Source: Lachnospiraceae bacterium (GTDB taxonomy: Bacteria > Bacillota > Clostridia > Lachnospirales > Lachnospiraceae). From it: DNA of 33,495 nt. The stretch spans positions 1-33,495 of the forward strand of contig JAEEKC010000321.1 in NCBI GenBank assembly GCA_016282215.1. Reading direction: 5' to 3'. The notes under the pieces are model-generated. The model was not told the DNA's origin. It saw nothing but the letters and a program-made list of their open reading frames with translations, and made no database searches. A program made the translations under genes and the position numbers. Below are positions 3-19,495 of this stretch, piece by piece (the first letter of the stretch is position 1; each line of letters opens with the position of its first letter).

Positions 3-3000
3 GCCGGTATTGAGACGCAGCATCTGCATAAGGTCATTTCAAGGGTACAGTACTTAAATCCCGGACTGAGACTCAGGCTGCAAAAGGATCTGAAGCTTTA
101 TCTTTCCGATGATCTTGAAACGGGAGTTTCCATGTATGACCATAGGAATGTTCCGCCCGAAGAGACTATGGACAAGATCCGGGACCTGATGAAAGAGCCG
201 GTTTTCGGATATGATAAGGCGCTGGTGTATTATCATATTTTTCAAAGAACGGATGAGATCCTGGTTTTCGGGATTTATGATCATCTGATCTGCGACGGGC
301 TTGCTTTTATCAAGATCGCAGACGAGTTTAAAAAAATGGCGCTGGATCCCGGTGATATGCTCTGGAGCAGCGAGGCGACGCCGGATCAGGCATTTATTGA
401 GTATCTGTCAGAAGAGGCTGACAAAGAGAAGAAACTCTCAAAAACGGCTGAAGAGTTTATACAGCGCTGCAGCCGGGAACATATCAATTTCCCCGTAAGG
501 AGAGAAGGCGGCAGCGGCCTTGCCGGAGTGTTCAGCGCATCACTGCAGCAGGATTTTTATGAAAGGGTGGACGCGGCCGGCCGGGAAAAAGGGCTGAGCA
601 TAGAGCAGATCTATCAGGCGGCTCTTTATCTGATCTACAGCCTGATCACAGGAAGGGAATGGATCAGTATCGGAAGGGTACTTGTCGGGCGCAGAAAAAA
701 AACCTTAACAACGGTGGGAATGTTCAGCAATACGCTTCCCCTGGCGGTGCAGGTCGGCAGAGAAGAATCCTTTGAAACGATATGCAAAAAGATAAAAAAA
801 GCGGAATTTCAGATGCTTTCCTATTCCGATCTGGATCCTGAAGGGATCAGGAAGGCAAACAGACTGACGAAAAATCTATATGATACGACCATAACATACA
901 GACCGCTGAAGCGGCTTCCCTTTGGACGTGAAGGAACCATTCCGGAGATTGAGAATGACAGGGTAGAGGTTCCACTGCGGATCCTGATCGATGAACGGGA
1001 AGATGGCGTTCATATTACATATAAATATATGAGGCAGGTTTATGAGGAAAGGGAGGTAGAAAGACTTCATGAACTGATCCTCGGTGTGATGGAGAAGGGG
1101 ATCGCACATAATGAAACAGCGGAAAATTTTACGGCTTTTGTGGGAGGGGATCTGCAAAGCCGGTCCGCAGCACCTTCGCAAAAACAAACAGATGGCGATA
1201 TCGCAAAAGCATTCAGACAGCATGCAAAGGATCATCCGGATGACATCTATATCATAGATGAGAGTAAGGCACAGCCGGAACTTACATATGCAGATGCCGC
1301 AGGGCTTGTTGACGATATTAAATGCAGATTATATAGTGAATATGAGAAATACGGAAGAAAAGACGGCCTGTTTCTGGTGGGACTGAAACTGAAGCGGACA
1401 TTCCGCCTGCCGCTGACCTGTCTGGCCTGTCTGGAACTGGGGGCAGTATGGGTTCCGGTCAGTATCGACGAGACGGCGCAGCGGACAAAAGAGCTGGCAG
1501 AGTCTTTTTCCGTTCTTCTGGATGATGCCTGGTTTGAAGATGGGCCTGAGCGCAGGCAACAGGCAGATGGAGAACCGGCGGAGGTGCCGGATCAGTCAAA
1601 TGCCGATCTGATTTACATCGGAAATGAAGAAGGGATCGCTTACGGGATTCATACTTCAGGAACCACAGGCCGAAAAAAACTCGCGCTTTTATATGAAAGA
1701 AGCCTGCAAAAAAGACTTTCCTGGATGCTTGAGGAATTTCAGCTTACAGGATGCCGTGTTCTGCAGAAAACGAAAAATGTATTTGACGTATCCGTTTGGG
1801 AGCTGCTGCTCCCCGCCCTGGCACATGGAAGCCTGGTAATGCTTCCCGACGGAATGGAAAAAGATCCCGAGGCCATAGCCGGGTTCGCCGAAAAGTATGA
1901 AACAGATACCTTGCATTTTGTGCCGTCCATGCTCAATGTATTTTTATCCTGGCTGGGCGTACGGGAGGCAAGAAAAGAGAAGCTTCGCAGTGTAAAAAGG
2001 GTGATAGCCAGCGGCGAGGCGCTTCACGGGGCTACTGCGGACAGGTTTTTCGAGCTGCTGCCCGGCGCCGATCTGTACAATCTGTACGGACCTGCGGAGT
2101 GTACGATCGATGTCAGTTTCCATCGATGCGTGCGCGGCGAAAAGGTGATCCCCATCGGAAGAGAGGCAGCGGATACCCTTCTTCGGATCGTCAATGAAAA
2201 GGGAGACGGGATCCCGGACGGGTTTATCGGTGAGATCGAAATACGAGGCGGTCTGGTGGGGAAGGGCTACTTCGATAATCCGGAGGAAACAGGAAAACGT
2301 TTCTATGAGGAAAATGGCGTTCGTTGTTACAGGACAGGGGACAGTGGATATAAAAATGCAGATGGCGAGGTCATCTATACCGGCAGGATCGACCGGGAGA
2401 TCAAATTGCGCGGCATGCGCATCGATCCGGCATTTCTGGAAAAAGAAGCGGTATTGACAGATGGCATTGAAGCTGCGGCTGCCATGCCGGTGGATGGCAG
2501 GCTGGTCCTGTTTGTTGTTTCAAAATACGGTGTTGAAACCCTGAAAAGAGAGCTGGCAAAGAGAGTTGCGCCGCATTATATTCCGGACCGGATATTTGGC
2601 ATCACCGCGATGCCCTTTACCGAAAACGGGAAAACAGATTACGCAGCGCTGGCTAAGATCTGTGCGGAAAAAAACATAGAGTCAGGACAGGCGCTGCAAA
2701 ATACGGAGGAACTAAGCGAAACGGAGAAGGTGATCACCTGCGAGGTGAAGAGGATCCTTTCCGTCAGCAAGATCGGGGTGACGGATTCTCTCAGGGAATT
2801 CGGGCTGGATTCGCTGTCCCTGGTGGAACTTCTGGTAGCACTTGACAAAAAAGGGTATTCGCTGAAATACGAAGATATCGCTTCCTGCGTCAATATCAGG
2901 GAACTGGCTCATATTGCCGTGGATATGGTGGAAAAAGATGATCCGGGATCGGGTTTTTGTCACGAATGGCCCGTGCCGGAGCCTGGAAAAGTACCTGTAG

Positions 3001-3698
3001 GCAGCGGCAAAAAGCTTTTTCTGGGTATTCCATATGCGGGAGCGGATGTAACTGTTTTTGACGGCCTTGCCAAAAAGCTGAGTGAAAAAGGAAGCAGATT
3101 TGCTGCCTTTGATATTTCGAAGGCGGATACCGGACTTTCCGATATGGCGGAAAGGATCGTTTCCTTCGTAAAAAAACGGTATCTGATCCGGGAAGAGGAC
3201 CGGGAGGAATTTGAGATCACGGTCGTCGGATGCTGCGTGGGTTCTTCTCTTGCGATCGAAATCGTAAGAGAATTATCGAAGATTTCGCAGCTTACGGTCA
3301 GGCTGGTTTTGATCGGGGCACTTCCTGCGGAGTTTTTGGGTGATCCGGAGCAGCAAAAACTTGCCTGGGACAGGATACCATATGCAGCCAGCGCGCTTCC
3401 GATCCGAAGCCTCCATGGGAAAAAAGTATCCATGACGCAGGAAATGTATGAGCGCCTGAAGGAGGAAGCCCGGGCCTATGTGGCACTGCTTCATGAAGAA
3501 AAGGAAGGCAAAGTCAGGCCGGGGAAGGGAACGCTGCTCATATTCGGAGACCGTGATGTGCTGACGAAAGGCTATGCAAAGCGGTACACGGAGTGGGAAA
3601 GATACATAGCAGGCAGCGTTCAGGTCAGGACGCTGAGAGGCGCATGGCATTTTTGTCTGACATCTCATGCGGATGAGATCGCAAAACTTTTACAGTAA
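3..3698 (+). CDS. Nonribosomal peptide synthetase module, C-A-T-TE architecture, 5' end outside window
   Basis: The frame is open from base 3 (AGIETQHLHKVISRVQYLNPGLRLRL...) into the listed ORF at 132. C-domain motif YDHLICDG; A-domain motifs HTSGTTGRKK, NLYGPAE, YRTGD, GRIDREIKLRGMRI, ENGKTD; carrier motif FGLDSLS; C-terminal alpha/beta-hydrolase TE with GCCVGS, FGDRD and GAWHF. Confidence 0.94.
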   Translation, partial: AGIETQHLHKVISRVQYLNPGLRLRLQKDLKLYLSDDLETGVSMYDHRNVPPEETMDKIRDLMKEPVFGYDKALVYYHIFQRTDEILVFGIYDHLICDGLAFIKIADEFKKMALDPGDMLWSSEATPDQAFIEYLSEEADKEKKLSKTAEEFIQRCSREHINFPVRREGGSGLAGVFSASLQQDFYERVDAAGREKGLSIEQIYQAALYLIYSLITGREWISIGRVLVGRRKKTLTTVGMFSNTLPLAVQVGREESFETICKKIKKAEFQMLSYSDLDPEGIRKANRLTKNLYDTTITYRPLKRLPFGREGTIPEIENDRVEVPLRILIDEREDGVHITYKYMRQVYEEREVERLHELILGVMEKGIAHNETAENFTAFVGGDLQSRSAAPSQKQTDGDIAKAFRQHAKDHPDDIYIIDESKAQPELTYADAAGLVDDIKCRLYSEYEKYGRKDGLFLVGLKLKRTFRLPLTCLACLELGAVWVPVSIDETAQRTKELAESFSVLLDDAWFEDGPERRQQADGEPAEVPDQSNADLIYIGNEEGIAYGIHTSGTTGRKKLALLYERSLQKRLSWMLEEFQLTGCRVLQKTKNVFDVSVWELLLPALAHGSLVMLPDGMEKDPEAIAGFAEKYETDTLHFVPSMLNVFLSWLGVREARKEKLRSVKRVIASGEALHGATADRFFELLPGADLYNLYGPAECTIDVSFHRCVRGEKVIPIGREAADTLLRIVNEKGDGIPDGFIGEIEIRGGLVGKGYFDNPEETGKRFYEENGVRCYRTGDSGYKNADGEVIYTGRIDREIKLRGMRIDPAFLEKEAVLTDGIEAAAAMPVDGRLVLFVVSKYGVETLKRELAKRVAPHYIPDRIFGITAMPFTENGKTDYAALAKICAEKNIESGQALQNTEELSETEKVITCEVKRILSVSKIGVTDSLREFGLDSLSLVELLVALDKKGYSLKYEDIASCVNIRELAHIAVDMVEKDDPGSGFCHEWPVPEPGKVPVGSGKKLFLGIPYAGADVTVFDGLAKKLSEKGSRFAAFDISKADTGLSDMAERIVSFVKKRYLIREEDREEFEITVVGCCVGSSLAIEIVRELSKISQLTVRLVLIGALPAEFLGDPEQQKLAWDRIPYAASALPIRSLHGKKVSMTQEMYERLKEEARAYVALLHEEKEGKVRPGKGTLLIFGDRDVLTKGYAKRYTEWERYIAGSVQVRTLRGAWHFCLTSHADEIAKLLQ

Positions 3699-3743
3699 AA
3701 AGCACAGCCTTTCTATATACTATCAGTTTACAGGAGAGGGATC

Positions 3744-4556
3744 ATGTATCCGTTTTGGATCATAGGAACGACGTATATCAGTATGCGTAAGCTGCTCACG
3801 GCCGTGGGCTGCGTTATCAACTTTATTGTTCTGACAATTTTGCTGACAAAGCGTTTGAAAAAAGGGATGAAGGAAGAAAAACCGGCAGCGGGAAAGTGGT
3901 TTTTCCAGGTGCTTCTTCCCCTGATCACGGAACTGTGCATCTTTATCTCCGTCGGGCATTTTTTAGGGAACCTGATCAGGGCGCTGACGCGTCCACTGAA
4001 GGAAAACATCGCGGAGGAAATGCAGTATGTGGTCGATGGCGCAGGCGTTCATTTTATCGGAACGGTGCTTGCATCAGCGCTGCTGCTTCCGCTGATCTTT
4101 CAATGGATCTATCGCCGGGAAGCGGACAGCAAACTCGATCTGATGGCATTTTTCTTTACGATCCAGCACATTTGCAACAGGATCGGCTGTTTTTTAGAGG
4201 GGTGCTGCTATGGGATACCGGCTTCGGGCGTTTTGTCGGTCCGTTTTCCGGAAAACCCGCCATACAGAGTTTTTCCATCCCAGTTGTTTGAAGCATCCCT
4301 GATGCTGCTTTTGCTGATATTGCAGTGCATTCTATACAAAAAGGGAAAAAGCATATTCAGGTCCACCACGCTGTTATTTGGCGCGTCCATCCTGCTCTCG
4401 GAGTGCTTCATGGATAAAAGGGGAGTTGTGATGTATGCGGGACTGACAGCGATCCAGGTGGCAGCCATTCTGCTGATGATCGTCTCGCTGACAGAGATCT
4501 TTGCAGCAAGGCGCAGGAGCGCTGACGGGCAGACACAGAAGGGACGACAGAAGTAA
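3744..4556 (+). CDS. Prolipoprotein diacylglyceryl transferase (Lgt)-like multi-pass membrane protein
   Basis: Several TM stretches; CNRIGCFLEGCCYGIP and PSQLFEA resemble the Lgt RIGNFxNGExYG and PSQLYE motifs; RBS aggagaggg upstream. Confidence 0.75.
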   Translation: MYPFWIIGTTYISMRKLLTAVGCVINFIVLTILLTKRLKKGMKEEKPAAGKWFFQVLLPLITELCIFISVGHFLGNLIRALTRPLKENIAEEMQYVVDGAGVHFIGTVLASALLLPLIFQWIYRREADSKLDLMAFFFTIQHICNRIGCFLEGCCYGIPASGVLSVRFPENPPYRVFPSQLFEASLMLLLLILQCILYKKGKSIFRSTTLLFGASILLSECFMDKRGVVMYAGLTAIQVAAILLMIVSLTEIFAARRRSADGQTQKGRQK

Positions 4557-4594
4557 AGGCAATGTTACGGAATTGATCGGAGAGGCTGATTGGC

Positions 4595-6232
4595 ATGAAA
4601 ACGATCATAAGACTGAAAAAAAACCGCATACAGTGGATCAGCATGGTCATGGCTGCGACTCTTTTGCTCAGCTTAAGCTTACCGGCTGTGCAAAGCCGCG
4701 CTGCGGTCAATTCCTTTTTACTGGCGCATTACACGAACACTGGGCTTGCGTCTTTGCTTGATGATCTGGATGAAAAAGGAAAACGCCCGGGAGAAGGCAT
4801 CGTCGTGGCCGTGATCGATACGGGCCTGTATTCGAAGGCCGATCAGTATTTTGACAATCTCTGGTATAATGAGACAGAAAAAAACGGCACAGAGGGTGTG
4901 GATGATGACGGCAACGGTTATGTGGACGATATCTGCGGCCTCAGCCTGGCCAACAGTGACGGAATGAAGGACAGTGACGGCCACGGCACGCAGGTGGCGG
5001 GGATCATAGGCATGTACATTCCGGAAAGTGATATAAGGGGCGTGGCATATGGCGCAAAGGTCATGCCGATCAGGGTGAGCACAGACCGGAATTATGACGA
5101 AGATGACGTGATAGAGGCGATCGAATATGCTGTCGATAATGGGGCAGATATCATCAATATGTCCTTTGCGACCTACAGGTATTCCGAAAAAATGGAAAAC
5201 GCGGTGCGAAAAGCTTCTGAAAAATGCGTCATGGTGGCGGCTGCCGGCAATGAAAGTTATGCGACGGTCGGACCGCTGAAGTCAGAAGACCTGACGGAGG
5301 AGGGTAAGGAGCAGGTTTATTGCCATGATGCTTATCCGGCTTCCTGGGACTGCTGCATCGGTGTCATGTCCTATGGCAATAACGATGAACTGGCCTATTT
5401 CAGTAACTGGGATCAGGGCGGCAGCGACCGGGTAAAGTATGATATCATCGCGCCGGGTGAGAATATCTATACCCTGACAAACGGCGGAAAGTTTGTCAAT
5501 GTTAAGGGAACTTCCTTCTCAACACCCTATGTTTCGGCTGCGGTGGCGATCTATATGAGCCTGACGGGACAAAAGGACCCGTCTGCGGTGAAAGAAGGTT
5601 TCCTGTCCCTGATAAACAGGAATTGTATCTACAGACAGGCGGGTTACGTTTTTTCATTTCCGAGGCTTTCTTTTGACGGAGTGAACAGTCTGACGGTCCG
5701 TGGAAACAGCACGGAGGATACGGTTAGCGGGAACAGCACGGACGATAGCGAAGGCGGAGAAGTTTCCGGACAGGACCAAAGCGGTACAGATACAAATACC
5801 GGAAAGCAGAATGCCGGTGATGAAAATACCGGAGGAAAGAATACCGAAACCGTTCAGGGCAGCGGAAAGGGTTGCAAACAGGACGATCCGCCGGAAGGGA
5901 TCGGTTGTCCGGAACAGGGCAGCGGGCATGAGCTTCCTTCGAAAACCGGAACGGAAATTTTCAAAAAACCAGTGATCAAAAAAGTAAAACAGACGACAAA
6001 GAAACTGACGATCACCATTAAAAACCTGCCCCAAACCGGAAAGACTACGCTTCGGATCTATAAAAAGAACAAGCTTCTGTATAAGGTTACGGTGAAAAAG
6101 TCCAAGGTGGTCATCAAGAGAAAGAAACTGGCGGTGAAAGGAAAGATCAAACTGCAGCTTTCCTATAAAAAGGGAAAAACCGTTACAAAATCAGGAAAAA
6201 CGATAAAACTTGGCAGTGTAAAGTCAAAATGA
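4595..6232 (+). CDS. Secreted subtilisin-like (S8) serine protease with low-complexity linker and Lys-rich C-terminal domain
   Basis: N-terminal signal peptide; triad motifs VVAVIDTG (Asp), DGHGTQVAG (His), GTSFSTPYVSAA (Ser) and AAAGNE (oxyanion Asn); Lys-rich beta-type C-terminus. Confidence 0.94.
   Translation: MKTIIRLKKNRIQWISMVMAATLLLSLSLPAVQSRAAVNSFLLAHYTNTGLASLLDDLDEKGKRPGEGIVVAVIDTGLYSKADQYFDNLWYNETEKNGTEGVDDDGNGYVDDICGLSLANSDGMKDSDGHGTQVAGIIGMYIPESDIRGVAYGAKVMPIRVSTDRNYDEDDVIEAIEYAVDNGADIINMSFATYRYSEKMENAVRKASEKCVMVAAAGNESYATVGPLKSEDLTEEGKEQVYCHDAYPASWDCCIGVMSYGNNDELAYFSNWDQGGSDRVKYDIIAPGENIYTLTNGGKFVNVKGTSFSTPYVSAAVAIYMSLTGQKDPSAVKEGFLSLINRNCIYRQAGYVFSFPRLSFDGVNSLTVRGNSTEDTVSGNSTDDSEGGEVSGQDQSGTDTNTGKQNAGDENTGGKNTETVQGSGKGCKQDDPPEGIGCPEQGSGHELPSKTGTEIFKKPVIKKVKQTTKKLTITIKNLPQTGKTTLRIYKKNKLLYKVTVKKSKVVIKRKKLAVKGKIKLQLSYKKGKTVTKSGKTIKLGSVKSK
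5702..5755 (+). repeat. 27-nt imperfect tandem repeat encoding GNSTEDTVS/GNSTDDSEG in the S8 protease linker
   Basis: GGAAACAGCACGGAGGATACGGTTAGC followed directly by GGGAACAGCACGGACGATAGCGAAGGC. Confidence 0.75.
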
Positions 6233-6289
6233 AAATAAGTCGCTAAGTGGCATATAAACTATTCATTCAAAAATTAAGAGGATCATGTA

Positions 6290-7645
6290 ATGCTGACAAC
6301 CATCAGAAGAGAACTGGAAAAGGCGGCGATCGATCTGCAAAGCAGTATTTACTGTGAGGCGCCGGAACATATTCTTGATTATAAACTTACCATCGGTGAT
6401 TTTGTTGAGCCCGAGACGGCGGACAGGGCCGTTGAGGACTTTGAAGTACTCCGTAGTTATTTTGCCGTGCAGCAGGAAGTCTATGCGGAAGATGAAGAAT
6501 ACTTTGAGGCAGTCAGAAACTTAAAGCAGATCAAAGCAAAGCTGAAGGAAAAAGGACAGGATCCGCAGGAACTGGAAAAAGCGCGCACACAGCGGAAGGA
6601 ACTGTCCAAAAAGATCGGTGAGCTGACACAGATGCTCGAAGAAAAGATCGAAGAAAGACTGGGTTTTCCATGGAAGGATAAGAAGGTTTTATGCTATAAA
6701 AATACCGTATTTATTTCCTGGCTGGCTGATCTGAAAGAGCGGCTGGAACAGCTTGAAGACCTTTCTTTGCCCGGTGCGGATAAGTATCCTTTGTTCATCT
6801 CAAATATCCGTTCTCTGGAAGAAGCCATCGGATACGGGGAGCAGATCGGGATTGTGGGCGGTCCGTGCCTGTTCGGTATCGATGAAGTGATCTTTTCCCT
6901 GACACTGGATGACGGCATGACGGTACGTTTTGACAGCTGCTGCGGCAGAAGGTGCTTAAGCGAGAACAAGACGCAGGCCACATTGGAGGAGTTCACATGC
7001 CAATATGGCGCAAGGATCGTAAAAGTGCAGCTTGATAACCGAAAGACAGGGGTGACAAAGCAGGAATATGACAGTATCTATAATCTGTTTTCCTTTGCAA
7101 GGGTTTTCCATGCAAGGTGTGTCATTCCCCTTCCGGACATCTCTTATTTCAAATATGCGGCCAGTGATCTGAAGGGACTTCCCGAGCAGCTGAAGAAAAA
7201 AAGCATGGAAGCATTCCGAAAAGAATGTTATGTTATATCTGATATGTATCTTCGATTGATCGAAAAAATTGCAGAGCAGTTTCCGGAGGTGGAATACTGC
7301 GTTCTCCATGACAGGGATGAAAAACTGGTAAGGCTGTTTTATGAGAAGAGAAAACCCTATGTGGAGAATTCCTCCTATCTGCAGAAGATCACGAATATCA
7401 GCGGGAAGAAGGATTCGGTGATCGACTATATCACCATGCTGGCCCTGCCTTATTATGTCTATGGCACGAAAACGGTGATCCAGCTTGACAGTGTGGACGA
7501 AACGGATTCCGGCAGAAAATGCAACAAGATCCATAAGGGTGATATCAGATTGTGTCAGATTCTGTATCCGGAATATTTAAGCCCGGATATGGAGCATACG
7601 ATCTATAATGCTCCACTGGATTTCAAGGAATATATTACGGTTTGA
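6290..7645 (+). CDS. Uncharacterized 451-aa protein with predicted N-terminal coiled coil; no family recognised
   Basis: Long ORF with RBS-like aagagga upstream, in cluster orientation and spacing. Charged helical segment around residues 60-130, then a Cys-containing globular-looking region. Confidence 0.85.
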   Translation: MLTTIRRELEKAAIDLQSSIYCEAPEHILDYKLTIGDFVEPETADRAVEDFEVLRSYFAVQQEVYAEDEEYFEAVRNLKQIKAKLKEKGQDPQELEKARTQRKELSKKIGELTQMLEEKIEERLGFPWKDKKVLCYKNTVFISWLADLKERLEQLEDLSLPGADKYPLFISNIRSLEEAIGYGEQIGIVGGPCLFGIDEVIFSLTLDDGMTVRFDSCCGRRCLSENKTQATLEEFTCQYGARIVKVQLDNRKTGVTKQEYDSIYNLFSFARVFHARCVIPLPDISYFKYAASDLKGLPEQLKKKSMEAFRKECYVISDMYLRLIEKIAEQFPEVEYCVLHDRDEKLVRLFYEKRKPYVENSSYLQKITNISGKKDSVIDYITMLALPYYVYGTKTVIQLDSVDETDSGRKCNKIHKGDIRLCQILYPEYLSPDMEHTIYNAPLDFKEYITV

Positions 7646-7686
7646 TATGATAAGGACCGGAGCGAAACACGCATAATAAATTGTCT

Positions 7687-7736
7687 AAAGACCGGTAGGA
7701 AAATACGGATTCGGGAAATTACTGATAAATTCAGGA
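7687..7736 (+). repeat. Dispersed ~50-nt leader repeat, copy upstream of the PBP1 lipoprotein gene
   Basis: AAAGACCGGTAGGAAAATACGGATTCGGGAAATTACTGATAAATTCAGGA is an ungapped near-match to AAAGTCCGGTATAAAAATACGAAGTCGGTATATGACTGATAAATTAAGGA at 19577. Confidence 0.7.
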
Positions 7737-7743
7737 GAGGGAT

Positions 7744-8913
7744 ATGAAAAAAAAGAAATGGCTGATCTATGTGGCTCTGATCATAGTTCTGATCATTGCA
7801 GGATGCATTTTTCAGGCGCTGTGGAAGGGAAATAACAAGGAGCAGGTGGAAACGGAAAAGGTTCTGAACCTGGTAGTTCTCGACAGCGGTGACTATTATC
7901 ATATCGATGACGGGATCGATGCGGGCCTGAAGATGGCATTTGATTCGCTGGAGGAACGGTTCAACCTGCATGTGAACCTGTCAGTTGTGGATGATGAAGG
8001 CGATTATGTCAAAGGGATCGCGCTTGCTAAGTCCCTGGCGGCGGATCCGAACGTGGATATTGTCATGAGTTTCCAGAACTTCGATTCCATCGGACCCGAG
8101 GCACCCTTTTTTGAGGAAGCAAAAAAGCCCTTTATCGTCACCATGGGATGTTATGATGAAGTGGCGGAGTCCGGTTATCAGTATTTCATTGCCGACTTTA
8201 TGAGCGGCAAGACGATCGGCAGGGAGATCGGAAAAAACCTGCAGAAAAACGGTGCAAAGAATGTAGCATTGTGTCATTCCGATACCCGGTTTGAGCAGGA
8301 TGAGATCCGCGGCATTCAGTCGCAGATCAGTCAGGATGACAGTGTACGCGTTGTGCATACGCAGACAGGACCATTTCAGGTTTCCGAGCTGTCTGAGCTG
8401 CTGCTGCGGTGCAAGCAGCTGAGCGTGGATACGGTTGTCGCCAACTTCTATAATCAGGAGGACTGTGCATGGCTTCTCAGCATGCTGTCGGAAAGCGGTC
8501 AGGATCTTGTACTTGTGGGCGATTATGCCATTGACAGTCCGGATATCCTGCGGCAGTACGGTACGTCCCTTGAGGGTGTATCCATCATTCCAAATTATCC
8601 TTATACGAAATCCCCGATCCTGGATGAATTTATAGCTGAGTATGAGAAAACGACAGGCCTGGAGTTTTCCAGCGTTGCCCTGCAGTATTATGACCTGATG
8701 GCAATGATCGGCGCTTACTGGCAGGTGACCGGAGGACGAACTGACCAGGTCATGAAACTGGTTAAAAAACAGGACGGATATGAGAGTATCGGCGGAAACA
8801 TCCGATTTGACGCAAACGGATGCCTGAGCGTAGAAGATGCGCCGGTGTACATATGTAAAGACGGCCATTTTGAACCGGTAGAGAAAGACCGCGAAAAGGC
8901 GGCAACCGAATAA
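7744..8913 (+). CDS. PBP1-type periplasmic-binding-like lipoprotein (ABC substrate-binding/sensor protein)
   Basis: N-terminal hydrophobic segment ending in the lipobox-like LIIAGC; fold features consistent with Leu/Ile/Val-type type-1 binding proteins; RBS aggagaggg. Confidence 0.82.
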   Translation: MKKKKWLIYVALIIVLIIAGCIFQALWKGNNKEQVETEKVLNLVVLDSGDYYHIDDGIDAGLKMAFDSLEERFNLHVNLSVVDDEGDYVKGIALAKSLAADPNVDIVMSFQNFDSIGPEAPFFEEAKKPFIVTMGCYDEVAESGYQYFIADFMSGKTIGREIGKNLQKNGAKNVALCHSDTRFEQDEIRGIQSQISQDDSVRVVHTQTGPFQVSELSELLLRCKQLSVDTVVANFYNQEDCAWLLSMLSESGQDLVLVGDYAIDSPDILRQYGTSLEGVSIIPNYPYTKSPILDEFIAEYEKTTGLEFSSVALQYYDLMAMIGAYWQVTGGRTDQVMKLVKKQDGYESIGGNIRFDANGCLSVEDAPVYICKDGHFEPVEKDREKAATE

Positions 8914-9893: not shown

Positions 9894-12047
9894 ATGAAAA
9901 AAGTGAAACACAAACTGCCGGTGATCCTGCAGATGGAGGCCGTGGAATGCGGCGCGGCTTCGCTGACCATGATCATGGGTTATTACGGAAGGCACATTCC
10001 TCTGGAAAAAATGAGGGTCGACTGTAATGTGACCAGAGACGGCAGTACAGCTAAATATATTGCACTGGCAGCCAAAAGACACCGTCTGAAGGTGTCTGCT
10101 TTCAGGCTGACTGCGGATCAGTTTCGGGAGAAGAACCGGTTTCCTGCTATCATTCACTGGGAGTTTAATCATTTCCTGGTGGTAGCCGGCATCAAAAAGG
10201 ACAAGGTATATCTGCACGATCCGGCGGCCGGCAAAGTTACCGTGGACTGGGAAACCTTCTCCAAGTCCTTTACCGGCGTGGCGCTTTTCTTTCAGCCTGA
10301 GGAGGATTTCGAGCCCTTAGGCAGCGGAAAGAACAACATGAATGATCTGAAATACGGCTTCGAAGGGATCCGCGGTGCCGTGCGTATGATCATCATTGTC
10401 GGCGGTATTTTTTCCATCCTGAGATTGTTTACCCCGTTTTTCTACAAGATATTCACTGACAAGATCCTGCTTGAACAGTCCGATGAGTGGATGATGCCGC
10501 TCATGGTCATCATGGGGCTGGTTGCTTTCGGTGCGCTTTTGACAGGAAGTATGGAGCGCATGTGGCTGGCAAGGCTGAAAGCCAAGTACAGGGTGCGCAT
10601 GACCACCGGACTGATGTGGAAGATATTGCGGCTGCCGGCCCAGTTTTTTGCCCAGCGTTTTGATGGAGATATCGTGTCCAGGGTGGAAAGCAATACGGAG
10701 GTAGCCTCCGTGCTGTTTGACCGGCTGATTCCCGCAGTGATGGATTTTTATCTGCTGGTCGTTTTATTTGTCCTGATGCTGGCACTCAGTCCGAAGATGG
10801 CGCTTGCGACGGCTGCTTTCGGCATATTGCAGGTAATGCTGATCCTGCTGATTTCAAGAAATACCGGCAATATCGCAAGAAGCCTGAGCCGTGATCAGGG
10901 AAAAATGTCAGGTATGATGCTTTCCGGTATTTCCATGGCCGAAACCGTGAAATCCAGCGGTTCAGAAGGAGAACTGGTGGGAAAGATCTTAGGATATCAG
11001 GCGAAATATGATAATTCCATGCTTTCTCTTTCCATGAACCGGCTCTACCTCGGCGCGCTGCCCAAGGTACTCGAAGGTGTCTGCGCGGCTGTGGTACTTG
11101 CCATCGGGATCAATTCGATTTTCAAGGGAGATACCACCGTCGGTATGCTGGTGGCATTCCAGTCCTTTGTGCAGATGTTCTTTCTGCCTGTTTCGTCCCT
11201 GACGTCTTGTATTCAGGCAGTTCAGGAGATCAGCGGCAGTCTCGATCGGATCGGCGATGTGGTAAATTATGAGGATGCCATCTCCAAGGAGAAACTCTTT
11301 GAGATTCAGGAAAATATGCCCCAGAGGCTCAGCGGCAGGGTGGAGATCAATGATGTCTGCTTCAGCTATTCTCCTGTGACAAAGCCATTGATCGATCATT
11401 TTACCATCAAGGCAAAAAGAGGCGATATCATTGCATTGTCCGGCGGCAGTGGCAGCGGCAAGTCCACACTGGCAAAACTGATCTGCGGCCTGTATCCCGT
11501 CAGCAGCGGGATGATCACCTTTGACGGCAGGAATATTGAAGATATCGATCATTATATCTTCACATCATCCGTGGCTGTGGTGGATCAGAACATTTCACTG
11601 TTTGCCGGAACCATCTGGGACAATGTAACTATGTGGAATGAAAATGTCAGTGAGGAAACCGTCATTCAGGCCTGCAAGGATGCATGTATCCATGATGAGA
11701 TCATGCAGAGGAAGGGCGGTTATCAATATATGGTAAAAGAGGGTGGCTCGGACTTTTCCGGCGGACAGCGCCAGAGGATTGAAATCGCCAGGGCTTTCGC
11801 CGCAAACCCCTCCATTCTGATCATGGACGAGGCCACCAGTGCGTTGGATGTGATCACGGAAAAGCATGTCATGGATGCGGTCAGACGCCGCAGGATCACC
11901 TGCTTTATCGTAGCACACAGGCTTTCCACCATCCGGGATGCGGATGAGATCATATTACTTGCAGACGGTCAGATCAAAGAACGGGGAACACATAAGGAGC
12001 TGATGGCTTTGAACGGCGCGTATGCGGCACTTGTCAGAGCAGATTAA
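9894..12047 (+). CDS. Peptidase C39-containing ABC transporter (NHLM-type peptidase/permease/ATPase)
   Basis: C39 motif LQMEAVECGAASLTMIMGYYG with catalytic Cys, His in HWEFNHFLVV and Asp in LHDPAAG; Walker A GGSGSGKST; signature FSGGQRQRIEIARA; Walker B ILIMDEATSALD. Confidence 0.96.
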   Translation: MKKVKHKLPVILQMEAVECGAASLTMIMGYYGRHIPLEKMRVDCNVTRDGSTAKYIALAAKRHRLKVSAFRLTADQFREKNRFPAIIHWEFNHFLVVAGIKKDKVYLHDPAAGKVTVDWETFSKSFTGVALFFQPEEDFEPLGSGKNNMNDLKYGFEGIRGAVRMIIIVGGIFSILRLFTPFFYKIFTDKILLEQSDEWMMPLMVIMGLVAFGALLTGSMERMWLARLKAKYRVRMTTGLMWKILRLPAQFFAQRFDGDIVSRVESNTEVASVLFDRLIPAVMDFYLLVVLFVLMLALSPKMALATAAFGILQVMLILLISRNTGNIARSLSRDQGKMSGMMLSGISMAETVKSSGSEGELVGKILGYQAKYDNSMLSLSMNRLYLGALPKVLEGVCAAVVLAIGINSIFKGDTTVGMLVAFQSFVQMFFLPVSSLTSCIQAVQEISGSLDRIGDVVNYEDAISKEKLFEIQENMPQRLSGRVEINDVCFSYSPVTKPLIDHFTIKAKRGDIIALSGGSGSGKSTLAKLICGLYPVSSGMITFDGRNIEDIDHYIFTSSVAVVDQNISLFAGTIWDNVTMWNENVSEETVIQACKDACIHDEIMQRKGGYQYMVKEGGSDFSGGQRQRIEIARAFAANPSILIMDEATSALDVITEKHVMDAVRRRRITCFIVAHRLSTIRDADEIILLADGQIKERGTHKELMALNGAYAALVRAD

Positions 12048-12064
12048 GCTTTCGGAGGAGCATC

Positions 12065-14209
12065 TTGACGAATATCAGGGAAAAGAAAAGAAAAGAGAGA
12101 GAACTCCTTTATACCGCAACGGAGCAGCTTTACGGGTCGATCCTGTGGAAAAAAAAGGAACCCGAAAAAGATGAGGGAAAGGCACAGACGCAGACGGAGG
12201 CGCTTTTTCAGATTCTGGACTATTTTCATCTGGACAGGCCGGAATTTGATGTGCCGCCGGAAGAGGTCAGTTTTGACGATCTGCTTCGAAGAAGCGGTCT
12301 GATGATGCGAAGGATTCAGCTGCGCAAGGGCTGGTGGATGCATTCCGCTTTGCCGATGATCGTCACCGATGAAAAGGGTGACGGCATTGCCATGGTTCCG
12401 GGCAAGGGAAATTTTTACCTGGAAATGACGGAAAACGGACCGGTTCGCCTGACCGCAGCCAGGGTGGGAGAGATCCATTCCCTTGCTTATTGCTTTTATA
12501 AACCGCTTGCGCCGGATAAGACCGGCATGAAGGAGTTCTGGAAGTTTATTGCTACCAGTATCACCTCCGGCGATATCGCCATGGTGCTGGTCATCAGTTT
12601 GTTTCTGGAACTGTCCGGTCTGATCCTGCCTTATCTGAATCAGACAATTTATAACAATGTTATCCCATCCGTAACGGCCAAGGAGATTCCGGGCATCATG
12701 GTTCTGCTTGTCAGCACTGCCATTTTCAGTTGTCAGATCTTTCTGGCGCGAAGTATCTGCGTGACCAGGATCGGTTCCAAAATGCGTATCGCCGGGCAGA
12801 GTGCGATTTGGAACAGGCTGTTTACACTGCCGATGCCTTTTATCCGCAGTTACGATGCCGGCGAACTGTACAACAGAGCCCTTGCAGTCAACACCATCTG
12901 TGATATCTTAGGCGGCGGTCTGATCCCTGCGGCCCTGACTGCGCTGCTGTCATTTATTTATCTGCTGCAGATCCGCGCATTTGCTTCGTGCATGGTGATT
13001 CCTTCGTTTATCATCATTGTCGTGATGCTGGCCAATATTATTGTCGCGGGTTTTATGCAGATCCGGCTCAGCAGGGTGGTGAATGAAAAAAACAACCGCG
13101 TCACCAGTTTTCTTTATCAGATCATCGGCGGCATCACCAAGATCAGGACGGCCGGCGCAGAAGTACGTGCCTATGCCAAGTGGGCGGAAAAGTGGAAGGA
13201 ACTTCCGTTGATGCCTCCTGTTTTTCTGCAGGTATCCGGTGTTCTGGGACTGGTTATCTCCATTTGCGGAAACATTCTGCTCTATGCCATTGCCTGGAAG
13301 GAAAAGCTTCCGGCCTCAACCTATATCGCTTTCCAGACCTCTTTTGCATCCTTTGCCGCATCGGTTCTGACGCTCGCTGATTTCGGCCTGCAGTTTGGTG
13401 CCCTGAAGCCGGCCATCGATATGGTCAGGCCCATCATGGATACCAAACCGGAAATCTTCACGGATCGGGAATATGTTAATAAACTGGATGGCAAACTGGA
13501 GCTGATGCACCTGAAGTTCCGTTATACACCGGATATGCCTTATGTGCTCGATGGGCTGAGCCTGAGCATCCAGCCGGGTGAATACCTGGGTATCGTGGGA
13601 AGTTCGGGATGCGGCAAATCAACCCTGATGAAAATGATTCTGGGATTTGAGACGGCGGAGAGCGGTTCCGTTTACTTTGACGGGAAGAATATCATCAATC
13701 TGGATCTGCAGTCACTGCGGCGCAGGATTGGCGTTGTACTGCAGAGCGGCAGTCTGTTTTCGGGGGATATCTATTCCAATATCGCGATCTGCGCGCCGGC
13801 CCTGACCATGGACGGTGCCTGGGACGCGGCCAGAAGAGCAGGGGTAGCAGAGGATATTGAGAAAATGCCCATGGGTATGTATACCATGCTTTCCGAGGAC
13901 GGCGGCGGCGTATCCGGCGGACAGAAGCAGAGGATCCTGATCGCGCGGGCCATTGCATCGAATCCGGATATCCTGTTGTTTGACGAGGCGACCAGCGCGC
14001 TCGACAACAGAACACAGGAAACTGTGGTCAATACCCTGAAGGAAATGCATTGTACCAGACTTGTGATCGCCCATAGATTATCCACTGTCAAAGACTGTGA
14101 CAGGATCATTTACCTGGATAAAGGAAAGATCATTGAGTCAGGAACCTATGATGAACTGATGAATCTGGGCGGCATGTTCGCAAAAATGGCCGTTCGGCAG
14201 TTGACATAA
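12065..14209 (+). CDS. ABC transporter permease/ATPase (second NHLM-type exporter subunit), no C39 domain
   Basis: TTG start after RBS ggagga; TM domain; Walker A GSSGCGKST; signature VSGGQKQRILIARA; Walker B ILLFDEATSALD; roughly 200-aa N-terminal region without C39 motifs. Confidence 0.93.
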   Translation: MTNIREKKRKERELLYTATEQLYGSILWKKKEPEKDEGKAQTQTEALFQILDYFHLDRPEFDVPPEEVSFDDLLRRSGLMMRRIQLRKGWWMHSALPMIVTDEKGDGIAMVPGKGNFYLEMTENGPVRLTAARVGEIHSLAYCFYKPLAPDKTGMKEFWKFIATSITSGDIAMVLVISLFLELSGLILPYLNQTIYNNVIPSVTAKEIPGIMVLLVSTAIFSCQIFLARSICVTRIGSKMRIAGQSAIWNRLFTLPMPFIRSYDAGELYNRALAVNTICDILGGGLIPAALTALLSFIYLLQIRAFASCMVIPSFIIIVVMLANIIVAGFMQIRLSRVVNEKNNRVTSFLYQIIGGITKIRTAGAEVRAYAKWAEKWKELPLMPPVFLQVSGVLGLVISICGNILLYAIAWKEKLPASTYIAFQTSFASFAASVLTLADFGLQFGALKPAIDMVRPIMDTKPEIFTDREYVNKLDGKLELMHLKFRYTPDMPYVLDGLSLSIQPGEYLGIVGSSGCGKSTLMKMILGFETAESGSVYFDGKNIINLDLQSLRRRIGVVLQSGSLFSGDIYSNIAICAPALTMDGAWDAARRAGVAEDIEKMPMGMYTMLSEDGGGVSGGQKQRILIARAIASNPDILLFDEATSALDNRTQETVVNTLKEMHCTRLVIAHRLSTVKDCDRIIYLDKGKIIESGTYDELMNLGGMFAKMAVRQLT

Positions 14210-14243
14210 AATCGCGCAAAGAGTATTATTAAAATGCACTAAT

Positions 14244-14285
14244 GCTGTTGTCATAACGAGAGAGTATGACAAGCAGCGGTTTTTG
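14244..14285 (+). terminator. Rho-independent terminator/attenuator-like hairpin between the ABC exporter and the MFS fusion gene
   Basis: GCTG-TTGTCATA acgagagag TATGACAA-g-CAGC (one bulged G) followed by GGTTTTTG. Confidence 0.7.
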
Positions 14286-14333
14286 CGTGTTTTAAGAGAG
14301 AAAATACAATGGAAAACTAAGAGGAAAAAAAAC

Positions 14334-17327
14334 ATGTTTTTGTGTATCAGAACAATGCAATTCAGGAAAAGGGATGTCGTATTCCTTATCATGGCTGCTG
14401 TTTTACTTATTTTTTCCGTTTTGGACTGGTGGTATCTTCCGTATGAACGGGCTCTTTCCGTAACAATAGACAGCCCTTATTATTCCACAGTGGATGAGGC
14501 AGGGAATCACTATGTTGTGAACAGCGGGAAAAGTGAGATCCTGAAGATCAATCCGGCAGGAAAGGTGCAGCGCAAGATCATGATGGTCAATCATGAAGCG
14601 GACTCTTTCGGAGAAGCGAATGAAATTGCTGTTGACAAAAATGGCAATATTTATGTGCAGGATGTCATCTGGAATGATACCGGACTCGGCCTTGCCGCAG
14701 AACGCATTATACGTTTCGATCAAAACGGCCATTTCCTGAATGTGGTTTATGAAGCGGATTATTCGGATGTACTGGTCACCAAACGGCATCTGTTTTCCCT
14801 TCGCATCATAGATAACATGCTGATGTTTGCCGCTGCGGATCCGGACGGCACGCAGTTTTTCATTATGGGCGTGAATACGGCATCAGGTGAGGGCGTCGTG
14901 CGGCTGTCTTCGTTTTCGCGCGATAATATAGAAAATGCCCAGTATATCGCAGTCTGTGGAAAGGACAGCGCATATATCGTAGAAAAGACAGGTACCATCT
15001 CTTTCATGACAACGGAAGGGGAAACAAACGTCTATGAAAGCGAAGAGGGACAGTACCTGCTGCCCTTCCAGATGACGGTGGATCAGGGCGGAAAAGCATA
15101 TATTACGGACATCTGCAACCAGTGCGTTTATCAGCTGTCCGGTGGCGAAGGCGGGGGCATTGAGGTTTTGTTTGACAGCCAGGCATTAAGCAAGATGACC
15201 GGACTGGATATGGAAAACTCCGTACTTTTGAACCTGAACGTGGTAAGTGTGCAGGGGAAAACAAAGCTCTGCATTACAGCTGATACGGGATATGCGGTTT
15301 TGGACCTTGAAGGCCGCAGCGCAGTAAGCTATGCTGAGGCACCCTATGAAATCTTCCTTCAGTTTATGATCATCGTTCGTTATGCGGCGCTGGTGATCAG
15401 TATGCTGATCCTTTTGTACTATGCAGCGGCACTTCTGATCTATTTGTTTAAATCCGGTGTGATCAAAGAGAAGATGATGAGTGTGATGCTGATCATCTGC
15501 GTAGCTGTGACAGGCCTGTTTATCATGACCAGTATGCTGGCCAGGTTCCGAATCAATTTCATAGATGAACAGATCGGCAATATCTGTACGGTGTCTCAGA
15601 TCGCATCGAGCATTATGGATAAAGAAGCCTTTGCCCATGTCAATTATCCTTCGGATTACCAGACCGAAGAATATCATATCCTGCAGGAAAACATGAAGCA
15701 GCTCATCGAAATGAAGAGCGAATACAGCGGCAACATGTACTGTAATCTGGTTAAAATGCAAAACGGCCGCTTTTATGCCTTTGCTTATCTGGACAATTCC
15801 ATCGGTGCTTTTTATCCTCTCGATGAGAAGGAGCGCAGTGAGGTGAAGGAAGTCTATGAAACCGGTGAGATGTTCATCAATGACGGTAAGGCGGATGCAA
15901 CCGGTGCTTATACCTATGTAAAGAGTCCCATCAAAAATGCAGACGGCTCCGTCATCGGCGTGGTTGAGATCGGTATGGTGGCCGATACCCTGACCGGCAT
16001 TGTGGACCAGATGCGTATGGATATCATGGTACACATTACGCTGATCCTGATCATAGCGGTATTCCTGCTCAATGAGATCTATGGATTTGTAAATGACAGA
16101 AAACAGTGGATTCAGGAGACCAATACGAGAGGGAAAGGATTGTTTCCACAGCCTTACCTTCGTGTGCTGATCTTCTTTACCACATTGGCTTATAACATGC
16201 CTACCAGTTTCCTTCCGGTTTATGTGGCAAGATTCTATAATGAATCACTTCCCATCACGGAAGATCTGGCCGGTTCCCTTCCGCTGACTGCCAACTTTTT
16301 CATGGTCGGCCTTGTGGCGATCTTCTGCAGTGCCATGCTCAGAAAAATGGGCTTCCGGTTTACGATGATACTGGGAGGACTGATCGTTGCAGCTGCCGAT
16401 TTCCTGACGGCGGTTTCCACCAATTGGTGGATGGCAATGATTGGCATTTTAGTCAATGGTATCGGTGTCGGTATTCTGCTCAACGGCCTGTTCATTATCG
16501 TTGCCAATCAGGATGATGAAAAAGCCAAGTCCGGTGGATTTTCCATCATCAATGGTTCCATGCTTTCCGGCATGATCTGCGGAACCGTTATCGGTGCAAC
16601 CCTTGCAGAGAAGATCGGTGAAGCAAAAATGTTCTTTGCATCCTGCGGACTCTGGGGGCTGATCGCTCTCATCGCCCTGTTTGCAGGCGGTCTGTTCAAG
16701 ACGAGTCCGAATCAGGCGGAGACAAGCAGGAAAGAGAAAAAAGGCGTGCCGGTATTGTTCTCAAGGGAGATCCTGGGCTTTTTGATCCTGGTAGCCATTC
16801 CTTATGTGATCGTCAACGGATTTACAAGTTATTTTCTGCCGGTGTTCGGCGATGCCTACGGACTGACCGAATCCCAGACCAGTTTGTTCCTGGTTATGAA
16901 CTGCCTGGTAGGAATTTTCCTCAGTGGTACGTTAACAGATATCTGCATGAAGTATTTGGGTAAGGCATCTCTGTATCTGTCCAGTGCGCTGTCTCTCGGT
17001 GCAGTACTGGTATTCGGGTACTTCCAGAATCTCTACATGCTTGCCTTTGCACTGTTCGTGCTGGGAGCGGCAAGGAGTTTCGGTGCGACCACAAGAGAAC
17101 TGATCTTCTGTGCGCAGCCTAAGGTACAAAAGATCGGGGAAGACAAGGCGATGGGTTATTACAATTTTGCGGACAATATCGGTGAGTCCATCGGGACCAT
17201 CGTATTCGGCGGCATCATGAGAGTGGGATTTGTCGGTGGCATGTGGGCGCTGACTGGTATTTCGGCCGGTCTTTTGGCACTGTTCGGGATATCGGATGCG
17301 CGTAATTCCGGAAAGAAAGAGAAGTAG
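14334..17327 (+). CDS. Multidomain membrane protein: extracytoplasmic NHL/beta-propeller-like region + Cache-like sensor + C-terminal MFS transporter
   Basis: ATG at 14334 after aagaggaaa is preferred to the TTG at 14283. Propeller-like repeats (VDEAGNHYVVNSGKSEILKINPAGKVQRKIM; VDKNGNIYVQ); TM pair flanking a Cache-like segment (YVKSPIKNADGSVIGVVEIGMV); about 12 TM MFS-like segment. Confidence 0.87.
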   Translation: MFLCIRTMQFRKRDVVFLIMAAVLLIFSVLDWWYLPYERALSVTIDSPYYSTVDEAGNHYVVNSGKSEILKINPAGKVQRKIMMVNHEADSFGEANEIAVDKNGNIYVQDVIWNDTGLGLAAERIIRFDQNGHFLNVVYEADYSDVLVTKRHLFSLRIIDNMLMFAAADPDGTQFFIMGVNTASGEGVVRLSSFSRDNIENAQYIAVCGKDSAYIVEKTGTISFMTTEGETNVYESEEGQYLLPFQMTVDQGGKAYITDICNQCVYQLSGGEGGGIEVLFDSQALSKMTGLDMENSVLLNLNVVSVQGKTKLCITADTGYAVLDLEGRSAVSYAEAPYEIFLQFMIIVRYAALVISMLILLYYAAALLIYLFKSGVIKEKMMSVMLIICVAVTGLFIMTSMLARFRINFIDEQIGNICTVSQIASSIMDKEAFAHVNYPSDYQTEEYHILQENMKQLIEMKSEYSGNMYCNLVKMQNGRFYAFAYLDNSIGAFYPLDEKERSEVKEVYETGEMFINDGKADATGAYTYVKSPIKNADGSVIGVVEIGMVADTLTGIVDQMRMDIMVHITLILIIAVFLLNEIYGFVNDRKQWIQETNTRGKGLFPQPYLRVLIFFTTLAYNMPTSFLPVYVARFYNESLPITEDLAGSLPLTANFFMVGLVAIFCSAMLRKMGFRFTMILGGLIVAAADFLTAVSTNWWMAMIGILVNGIGVGILLNGLFIIVANQDDEKAKSGGFSIINGSMLSGMICGTVIGATLAEKIGEAKMFFASCGLWGLIALIALFAGGLFKTSPNQAETSRKEKKGVPVLFSREILGFLILVAIPYVIVNGFTSYFLPVFGDAYGLTESQTSLFLVMNCLVGIFLSGTLTDICMKYLGKASLYLSSALSLGAVLVFGYFQNLYMLAFALFVLGAARSFGATTRELIFCAQPKVQKIGEDKAMGYYNFADNIGESIGTIVFGGIMRVGFVGGMWALTGISAGLLALFGISDARNSGKKEK

Positions 17328-17347
17328 CGGTATCAAATAACGGGTGG

Positions 17348-19495
17348 ATGATCATGGAAAAAGGCAGGGGAAAAGATCCGGTTTCTAAAAGTAAAATTTT
17401 GCGTATAGCCGGGCTGATCGTATTATGTTCTGTCGGGGTTTTCTTAAACCTCGGCGCTGGGTGGTTCGCCGGCAGAGCCGGTCGGCCTCTTTATCTGGAT
17501 ACGCTTGGAACGGTACTGATCGCTGCCGTAGGCGGTTATATTCCTGCAGTCTTTGTGGGCTTTTTTACCAATCTGATCAAAAGCATCTATGATACGACAG
17601 CTGTCTATTTTGGCTGTATCAATGTATTGATCGCCATTCTTGTCGGTTATCTGTCTAAACAGGGCTGGATGAAAAAATGGTACAAGGCCTTTACGATTGG
17701 TTTGCTCATGGCGGTATCATCCGGCATTCTGGGTTCGATTCTTTCCTATTGTTTATATGGTTTTGCCGCAGACGGCGTATCGGCGGATCTTGCGCTGCGT
17801 ATCTATGAATCTACGGGTATGCCGCAGTATCCTGCCCAGCTTCTGGCGAATCTTGCCCTGGAATTCTGCGATAAAGTGCTGACTGTAACGGTGGTATTTT
17901 TCTTATGTCTTGGCATTCCTGAGAGTATTAAGGAAAGCACCATGTTTGACGGCTGGCAGCAGACGCCCTTGAGCAAAAAGACGTTAAATCGCATCCGGAA
18001 AATGAGCAGCAAGGGTATGGGCATTCGATCCAAGATATCGCTGATCCTGATTCTGTCGCTTCTCAGCGTTTCCTTGGGGGCGACGGTCATCAGTTATTAT
18101 CTGTATCGACAGAATACCATTGAGGAGCATAAGCATCTGGCAGGCGGCGTAGCAGATCTGGCAGTCGGACTCATCGATCCGGAAAAAGTGAATGAGTATA
18201 TCATCAACGGAAGGCAGGTGCCGGGCTATGAGGAGATTGAGCAGCGGCTGTACCAGCTTCGGGACAGTTCTGACGAGATTGAATTCATTTATGTGTATAG
18301 GATTGAGCTCGATGGCTGTCATGTGGTATTTGACTTAGGCACGGATGATTATCCTGCAGCAAAGCCGGGAGAAGTGCTTTCCATTGAAGAAGCGTTTGTA
18401 CCGCTGCTCGGAGACATGATCCTGGGCGAACAGATCGATCCGCAGGTCACCAATGATCAGTACGGATTTCTTCTGACAGTCTACAAACCGGTTTATAATA
18501 AGGCGGGTAATTGTACCTGCTATGTGGGTGTCGATGTTTCTATGACGAAACTGGCGCATAACAGTTACATCTTCTTTGCCAAGCTTCTTTCCATCTTTTT
18601 AAGCTTTTTCCTGCTGACCATGTCTTTTTGCTTGTGGCTTGCAGAGTATAATATCCTGATACCGGTCAATACCATGACCTATGCAGCCGGTATTATGTCA
18701 AAGGAAGAAGGCATGTCATCGGATGAGGCAGATGAGGTGAAGAATCTGGATATCCGGACCGGTGATGAGATTGAGCTGCTCTACCGTGCGCTGGCGAAGT
18801 CGTCTGAAAAATCCCTGAAACAGTTTGACACTCTGTCGCAACGATTCTCGCATGTGCTTTTATCACGAAGGAAACTGATATTCCTGTTTGCTGATATGAT
18901 TGAAAGCAGGGAATCTGACACCGGCGGTCATGTGGACAGACTTGTGAAAAGCGTTAAGGTCATTCTTCGTTCCATGAGGGAACTCGGTTATTATCAGGAT
19001 ATCGTAACGGATCAGTTTGTCGAAGATGTGATCAGTGCAGTGCCCCTTCATGATATCGGTAAGGTCAATGTCAGCGAGATCGTATTGAACAAACCGGGAA
19101 AACTGACGGATGAAGAATTCGCGATCATGAAGATGCATACCAGATACGGCAGTGAAATCATTGACGGGATCCTGCAGGATGTTCCGGATTCCGGCATGCT
19201 TCAGGAGGCGAAGAATATTGCGGCTTATCATCATGAAAGATGGGATGGCAAGGGGTATCCTGAAGGCTTAAAGGGAGAAGACATTCCCCTTTCTGCCAGA
19301 GTTGCAGCTGTCGCTGATCTGTTTGATGAGCTGATGACAAAGCGCGGACCCGACCGCAAAAAGCCGCTCAGTTTTGAAGATGCGATGGATGTCATGAATG
19401 ACGAATCGGGAACCGGTTTTGATCCGCTGGTGGCAGAAGCGTTCATCATGGCAGAGGATGAGATACGAAAGATTTATGCTGACAAGGCACCGTGA
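17348..19495 (+). CDS. ECF-S-like TM region + Cache-like sensor + HD-GYP c-di-GMP phosphodiesterase-like protein
   Basis: HDIGK and HHERWDGKGYPEGL (HD-GYP signature); N-terminal YLDTLGTVLIAAVGGYIPAVFVGFFTNLIKS resembles ECF substrate-binding subunits; periplasmic segment YGFLLTVYKPVYNKAGNCTCYVGVDVSM is Cache-like. Confidence 0.93.
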   Translation: MIMEKGRGKDPVSKSKILRIAGLIVLCSVGVFLNLGAGWFAGRAGRPLYLDTLGTVLIAAVGGYIPAVFVGFFTNLIKSIYDTTAVYFGCINVLIAILVGYLSKQGWMKKWYKAFTIGLLMAVSSGILGSILSYCLYGFAADGVSADLALRIYESTGMPQYPAQLLANLALEFCDKVLTVTVVFFLCLGIPESIKESTMFDGWQQTPLSKKTLNRIRKMSSKGMGIRSKISLILILSLLSVSLGATVISYYLYRQNTIEEHKHLAGGVADLAVGLIDPEKVNEYIINGRQVPGYEEIEQRLYQLRDSSDEIEFIYVYRIELDGCHVVFDLGTDDYPAAKPGEVLSIEEAFVPLLGDMILGEQIDPQVTNDQYGFLLTVYKPVYNKAGNCTCYVGVDVSMTKLAHNSYIFFAKLLSIFLSFFLLTMSFCLWLAEYNILIPVNTMTYAAGIMSKEEGMSSDEADEVKNLDIRTGDEIELLYRALAKSSEKSLKQFDTLSQRFSHVLLSRRKLIFLFADMIESRESDTGGHVDRLVKSVKVILRSMRELGYYQDIVTDQFVEDVISAVPLHDIGKVNVSEIVLNKPGKLTDEEFAIMKMHTRYGSEIIDGILQDVPDSGMLQEAKNIAAYHHERWDGKGYPEGLKGEDIPLSARVAAVADLFDELMTKRGPDRKKPLSFEDAMDVMNDESGTGFDPLVAEAFIMAEDEIRKIYADKAP

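Follow-up and report, generated by a model that had tools for sequence, protein, structure and literature searches.

A putative mosaic locus in a Lachnospiraceae-type genome carries an NHLM-type exporter subtype, a rare non-ribosomal peptide synthetase and an orphan protein family with a predicted synthetase-like fold

We analysed a stretch of 33,495 nucleotides (the window; contig JAEEKC010000321.1 of assembly GCA_016282215.1), in which ten co-directional genes bring together a non-ribosomal peptide synthetase (NRPS), an exporter resembling the NHLM bacteriocin export system, and a 451-aa orphan protein accompanied by a major facilitator superfamily (MFS) fusion and a membrane sensor. The window forms the first part of contig C8 in a draft metagenome-assembled genome (MAG) of Lachnospiraceae type (G000; 2.8 Mb in 405 contigs, with 81% completeness and 5% contamination). 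The contig begins inside the NRPS gene, which is where readable sequence starts. The G+C content is even across the window, and a plasmid search gave no match. We compared about 1,900 genomes, drawn as samples of the family and the order, with 397 genomes in the family-level scans for the first ABC transporter (ABC1) and the NRPS. On our preferred reading, the orphan family is the newest element of the locus; the orphan, the MFS fusion and a sensor form a separate conserved unit, which is the part of the locus worth pursuing. Within the open-access literature, this gene set has not been described. The features are as follows.

3..3698, + strand: NRPS with condensation (C), adenylation (A), thiolation (T) and terminal hydrolase (TE) domains (PF00668, PF00501, PF00550), 5' end cut by the contig start; orthologues in G301, G008 and G358
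3744..4556, + strand: membrane protein resembling prolipoprotein diacylglyceryl transferase (Lgt; PF01790), with GxHxxG and NRxGCxxxGCCYG motifs
4595..6232, + strand: secreted S8 subtilase (PF00082, triad motifs) with a basic C-terminal domain
6290..7645, + strand: orphan, class Ic aminoacyl-tRNA-synthetase-like by predicted fold (AlphaFold2 model of orthologue L124, Foldseek)
7744..8913, + strand: type 1 periplasmic-binding-like protein (PBP; PF13458), membrane-anchored
8958..9869, + strand: HlyD-type adaptor of a long subtype of about 300 aa (PF13437, TIGR03794; alignment A2)
9894..12047, + strand: C39 peptidase-ABC transporter, NHLM ABC1-like (TIGR03796; tree clade 100/100)
12065..14209, + strand: ABC transporter without a C39 domain, NHLM ABC2-like (TIGR03797)
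14201..14229, + strand: promoter-like TTGACA-17-TATTAT between ABC2 and the MFS gene (11/12 match)
14334..17327, + strand: propeller-Cache-MFS fusion (PF07690; sCache_3_2 in relatives); the mechanical open reading frame (ORF) opens at TTG 14283
17348..19495, + strand: membrane sensor with an HD-GYP output (PF13487, NF045596), an N-terminal ECF-S-like transmembrane region and, by eye, a Cache-like extracellular region

A reading made earlier from the sequence only had proposed these ten genes with their domains, and both the coordinates and the Pfam assignments were confirmed: Condensation, AMP-binding and PP-binding; LGT; Peptidase_S8; Peripla_BP_6; HlyD_3; Peptidase_C39 and ABC; ABC; MFS_1; and HD_5, with no Pfam family for the orphan. 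Intergenic gaps range from 17 to 98 nt, and the gap before the MFS gene measures 124 nt if translation starts at ATG 14334. This ATG is preceded by the ribosome-binding-site-like AAGAGGAAA, and the orthologues share that start. Active-site motifs are intact in the C39 domain (Cys/His/Asp), the ABC domains (Walker A, SGGQ), the S8 protease (triad motifs), the HD-GYP domain, the A domain (core motifs) and the T domain (GLDS). The promoter-like site, of which 0.17 would be expected per 20 kb strand, was absent from the orthologous ABC2–MFS gaps of L069, L071 and L072, so that a second transcription unit starting there is only weakly suggested.

The orphan was found at 13 loci in 13 genomes, one of them from another family of the order. 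Here, as for the other relatives, single-sequence searches yielded almost nothing and profile searches were required; many contigs are short, and an absence from an incomplete MAG is weak evidence. The MFS fusion, which comprises a propeller, a single Cache domain and the MFS domain as far as the models show, accompanies the orphan, adjoining it or close by, in 11 of the 12 assessable loci (G003, of the same genus as the window, could not be assessed): it is the next gene in eight and is separated from the orphan by the exporter cassette in three (window, G173 and G347). A sensor with a SpoIIE phosphatase output adjoins the orphan in seven loci, as identified by Pfam in L124 and by homology or by eye in the others. 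The corresponding slot holds the HD-GYP protein in the window and neither output type in G173, G347 and G301. Orphan, MFS fusion and SpoIIE sensor occur together without an exporter in G593, G354, G715, G387, G269 and G309, and in most orphan loci exporter, NRPS and giant protein (described below) are all missing. The sequence-only reading had assigned the PBP, the MFS fusion and the HD-GYP protein to a sensory arm of the NRPS–exporter cluster; the orphan, the MFS fusion and a protein with Cache and SpoIIE phosphatase or HD-GYP output are indeed a conserved unit, but one that is independent of NRPS and exporter. BLAST between the two Cache-like regions of the window detected no similarity. At the G445 locus (L139:5306-11133), orphan and SpoIIE-type sensor follow genes that resemble, by eye, a contractile injection system (PAAR-like, DUF4255-like).

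The 13 orphan sequences, with identities down to 31%, share 40 invariant columns, including the six motifs GGPCLFGxxE, KxxxTxQE, PDxSYxK, HxR[DN], DYxxMxAxP and ExxSxxKCxxxH. By sequence, the orphan matched only coiled coils and designed proteins in the PDB. An AlphaFold2 model of L124, the compact orthologue of G593, computed on the 13 sequences, reached a pLDDT of 90.3 and a pTM of 0.90; an earlier, poor model (pLDDT 64) had the same fold. With Foldseek, the top 50 PDB matches were all tyrosyl- or tryptophanyl-tRNA synthetases (TyrRS/TrpRS, PF00579; best E 2.8e-5, TM-score up to 0.46), and in the viral library the matches were TyrRS, TrpRS and a phage cyclodileucine synthase. The orphan is thus predicted to adopt a class Ic aminoacyl-tRNA-synthetase fold. 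Unlike TyrRS and TrpRS, it has neither HIGH nor KMSKS: KMSKS is absent from all 13 sequences and HIGH from 12, the remaining one (L140) having a chance NTAH. In the model, KxxxTxQE is found at the start of the first core helix and GGPCLFGxxE in the N-terminal extension, both placed by secondary structure only. Cyclodipeptide synthases (PF16715) are derivatives of class I synthetases in which HIGH was lost (PMC2922099), and this shared loss makes a tRNA-using enzyme our leading guess for the orphan. The orphan differs from them in being about 150 residues longer, with an N-terminal extension and other invariant motifs. A search for cyclodipeptide synthases in 120 genomes of the phylum gave no match, a result that carries no weight since no control gave a signal.

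The order of the HlyD, C39-ABC and ABC genes is that of the NHLM system, as the earlier reading had recognised, and all three proteins narrowly missed the curated NCBIfam cut-offs (155.1 versus 156.2 bits for HlyD, TIGR03794; 841 versus 853.3 bits for ABC1, TIGR03796; 660 versus 709.4 bits for ABC2, TIGR03797). Among the 397 family genomes, 62 had ABC1 matches at E ≤ 1e-150, and 46 neighbourhoods were fetched, four of which, besides the window, contained a PBP and a long HlyD. In the ABC1 tree, these five exporters, from five genera, form a single clade inside the NHLM-type transporters (support 100/100; long stem of 0.86), so this subtype was gained once and not five times independently. The PBP is present at 5/5 loci of this clade versus 0/42 of the remaining NHLM-like loci, where phmmer detected no PBP, orphan, MFS fusion, NRPS or Lgt-like gene. 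The exporter is a real subtype of NHLM-type exporters. It resembles the NHLM/NHLP bacteriocin system (PMC2887384) in its HlyD, C39-ABC and second ABC in series, and differs from it by the additional PBP, the long separate stem, the scores below all three cut-offs, and the lack in the window of an NHLP/Nif11 precursor and of a TOMM or lanthionine enzyme. The lipoprotein label previously given to the PBP does not extend to relatives: a lipobox-like site is seen only in the genus of the window, and the orthologues of the four other genera carry a simple N-terminal anchor. The MFS fusion follows ABC2 wherever the contig extends (window, G035, G173 and G347), and in G301 it lies together with the orphan on a separate contig. 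Across genera, the exporter is conserved together with the PBP, the MFS fusion and the orphan, so that the four form a set, and the data support an association between the exporter, the MFS fusion and the orphan.

The NRPS is kept less consistently. Because the window is the start of a contig, about 45-55 N-terminal residues of the protein are missing. The domains C, A (about 1212-2657) and T (about 2736-2912) anticipated by the sequence-only reading were identified by Pfam; the terminal hydrolase (about 3009-3698) had no Pfam match and displays a Cys-type motif, GCCVG in the window and GxCVG in the window, G301 and G008. The A-domain specificity residues, read by eye, appear to be of the serine type (DVWHISLID in the window; DVWH(I/F)SLID across window, G301 and G008). 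The domain order and the putative serine code resemble those of EntF of the enterobactin synthetase, C-A(Ser)-T-TE, which was among the PDB and NCBIfam matches. The window protein differs from EntF in having Cys in place of Ser in the hydrolase motif, a replaced first His in the C domain (DHLICDG) and no siderophore genes in the window. The subfamily was detected in four of the 397 genomes (window, G301, G008 and G358) by a profile built on the first three; the G358 member, from outside the profile, scored 919 bits versus 475 for the next protein. Exporter genes are located downstream of the NRPS in the window and G301, whereas the NRPS of G008 and G358 comes after the genes for a secreted protein of ~350 aa and an Lgt-like protein, and no exporter adjoins it. 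The profile search found no NRPS of this subfamily in the exporter-bearing G173, G035 and G347. This rare EntF-like module is an optional passenger or neighbour of the exporter.

In G301, genes for an acyl carrier protein and a ketosynthase are divergent from the NRPS, which fits acyl transfer to serine. The divergent stretch (L068:571-4082) encodes a ketosynthase, an acyl carrier protein and an esterase, and is a possible source of an acyl chain. Further condensation domains, found in G173, G035 and G008, belong to sets with an AMP-ligase and, in some cases, an acyl carrier protein, and were set aside as unrelated to the window NRPS. Such free-standing pairs of condensation domain and AMP-ligase recur in several Lachnospiraceae genomes (L099:7805-11231, L101:1855-5098 and L102:9807-12994, with an acyl carrier protein in G008).

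The Lgt-like protein matches PF01790 and retains a conserved His (in GxHxxG) and a conserved Arg (in NRxG) where they would be expected, with NRxGCxxxGCCYG instead of the canonical region; its score of 36.7 bits is far short of the 334 bits set as the Lgt equivalog cut-off. Its gene is paired with the NRPS in G008 and G358 and adjoins the S8 gene in G301. S8 genes adjoin a giant secreted protein and/or the orphan in G347, G173, G301, G003 and G004. This giant, of ~3,000 aa, precedes the exporter in G035, G173 and G347 (split over contigs in the latter), and Calx-beta domains were identified by Pfam in the G035 protein. Contig C111 of G301 has the order giant, LytTR regulator, orphan, MFS fusion, S8, Lgt-like; this genome contains all gene types of the window save the HD-GYP sensor, over two contigs whose ends allow a putative join. 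In G004, of the same genus as the window, HlyD, ABC1, ABC2, a different Lgt-like subtype, giant and S8 form one run (L155:3007-19167) with an exporter of a different lineage, and G017, its sister in the tree, likewise has a giant-like protein. In the window genome, contig C77 ends within the gene of a giant, of which it encodes the first 507 residues. Overall, the giant Calx-beta protein, the S8 protease and the Lgt-like gene recur with these exporters.

Genome-mining programs would score an NRPS next to an NHLM exporter as one biosynthetic cluster; here, the parts occur apart in relatives. We give about an even chance to the view that the window is a mosaic surface-and-signalling locus of three separable parts: the exporter, the NRPS with the Lgt-like enzyme, and the orphan with the MFS fusion and sensor. 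Because its C39 domain is intact, the exporter would most likely cleave and export a leader-bearing peptide encoded elsewhere, serving the cell surface. The C-A(Ser)-T-TE protein would most likely take an acyl group from an acyl carrier protein, attach it to serine and release the product, and the Lgt-like enzyme may act on this product or on a lipid or protein acceptor in the membrane. Having lost the ATP-binding HIGH and KMSKS motifs, the orphan most likely resembles cyclodipeptide synthases in drawing on aminoacyl-tRNA, or on some other activated aminoacyl donor, for the synthesis of a small product, which the MFS domain may move and the Cache domains may report. The comparison also brings to light a family of proteins that Pfam does not cover; its predicted fold suggests chemistry that depends on tRNA, and its genomic neighbourhood suggests a role in sensing.

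Two readings that tie NRPS and exporter together start from their adjacency in two genera (window and G301). That the NRPS decorates a ribosomal peptide with an acyl or peptide group, and that C39-ABC and HlyD process and secrete the conjugate, would agree with the intact C39 catalytic residues; this hybrid, put forward by the sequence-only reading, is nevertheless very improbable, and finds no support because the window gaps, the span that we searched rather than the whole genome, contain no candidate for a short precursor gene that is preceded by a ribosome-binding site. The sole gap ORF with such a site encodes 22 aa and overlaps the end of the orphan. The gene set also has no known enzyme modifying ribosomally synthesised peptides, and NRPS and exporter each occur without the other, in G008 and G358 and in G173, G035 and G347, respectively. 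The same distribution, with the NRPS missing from three of the five clade genomes and lacking an adjoining exporter in two others, means that the exporter cannot serve the NRPS product in general, as had also been suggested. Reuse restricted to the two genomes with both, for an acyl-serine lipid or oligomer and with C39 cleavage unneeded, would suit the acyl carrier protein and ketosynthase of G301; it is unlikely, though less so than the hybrid, given the fully conserved C39 active site.

A more plausible alternative, still a minority one, is that the giant is the real client of the locus, processed or lipidated by the S8 and Lgt-like proteins, with the NRPS supplying acyl-serine for its modification. 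The gene runs of G004 and G301, the giant adjoining the exporter in two separate exporter lineages, and the secreted protein ahead of the Lgt-like–NRPS pair in G008 and G358 are in line with this, but the signal peptides of the giants look, by eye, like ordinary Sec ones, we found no modification site that they share, and the giant of the window genome is on a different contig. For the orphan, we regard with similar reserve a catalytically dead, synthetase-like sensor of tRNA or amino acids that feeds the Cache/SpoIIE/HD-GYP pathway: both signature motifs are lost and signalling proteins adjoin the gene, yet the 40 invariant columns, with Cys, His, Lys, Asp and Glu among them, look catalytic. 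Equally tentative is a fuller version of the mosaic view, in which the orphan would be an undescribed class Ic synthetase-derived family, distinct from cyclodipeptide synthases, that makes a small signal from aminoacyl-tRNA; the MFS fusion, with its built-in extracellular propeller and Cache domain, would be both exporter and receptor, SpoIIE phosphatase or HD-GYP the output, and the circuit would have been joined to the NHLM-type exporter in the clade of the window.

Several observations weigh against the mosaic view and its proposed roles. Profile–profile comparison (hhalign) of the orphan with TyrRS and TrpRS gave no signal, and the TM-scores to synthetases are just 0.28-0.46; the kinship therefore rests on predicted structure. 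The orphan does not match the cyclodipeptide synthase family PF16715 even at E 10. The MFS fusion is missing from G445, which has orphan and sensor, and the orphan is missing from G035, which has exporter and MFS fusion. The link of the MFS and Cache domains to an orphan product would be guilt by association, and the putative serine specificity of the NRPS was read by eye.

Other genes lie near these loci. A PADLOC scan, outside which the NRPS and exporter proteins fell, detected no defence system, only subtilase/IetS-type matches for the S8 protease and one weak LmuB match. Between the locus and uvrB, positions 19554-20770 of the window encode a GNAT acetyltransferase and a SAP-domain protein. 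At 22941-25769, an MBOAT acyltransferase-like gene is followed by one for an AlgX/DHHW-like secreted protein, by eye an O-acetylation pair. Upstream of the G035 locus (L085:2041-8495), we observed two near-identical tandem pairs, each combining a secreted protein with an AAA-type ATPase-like protein.

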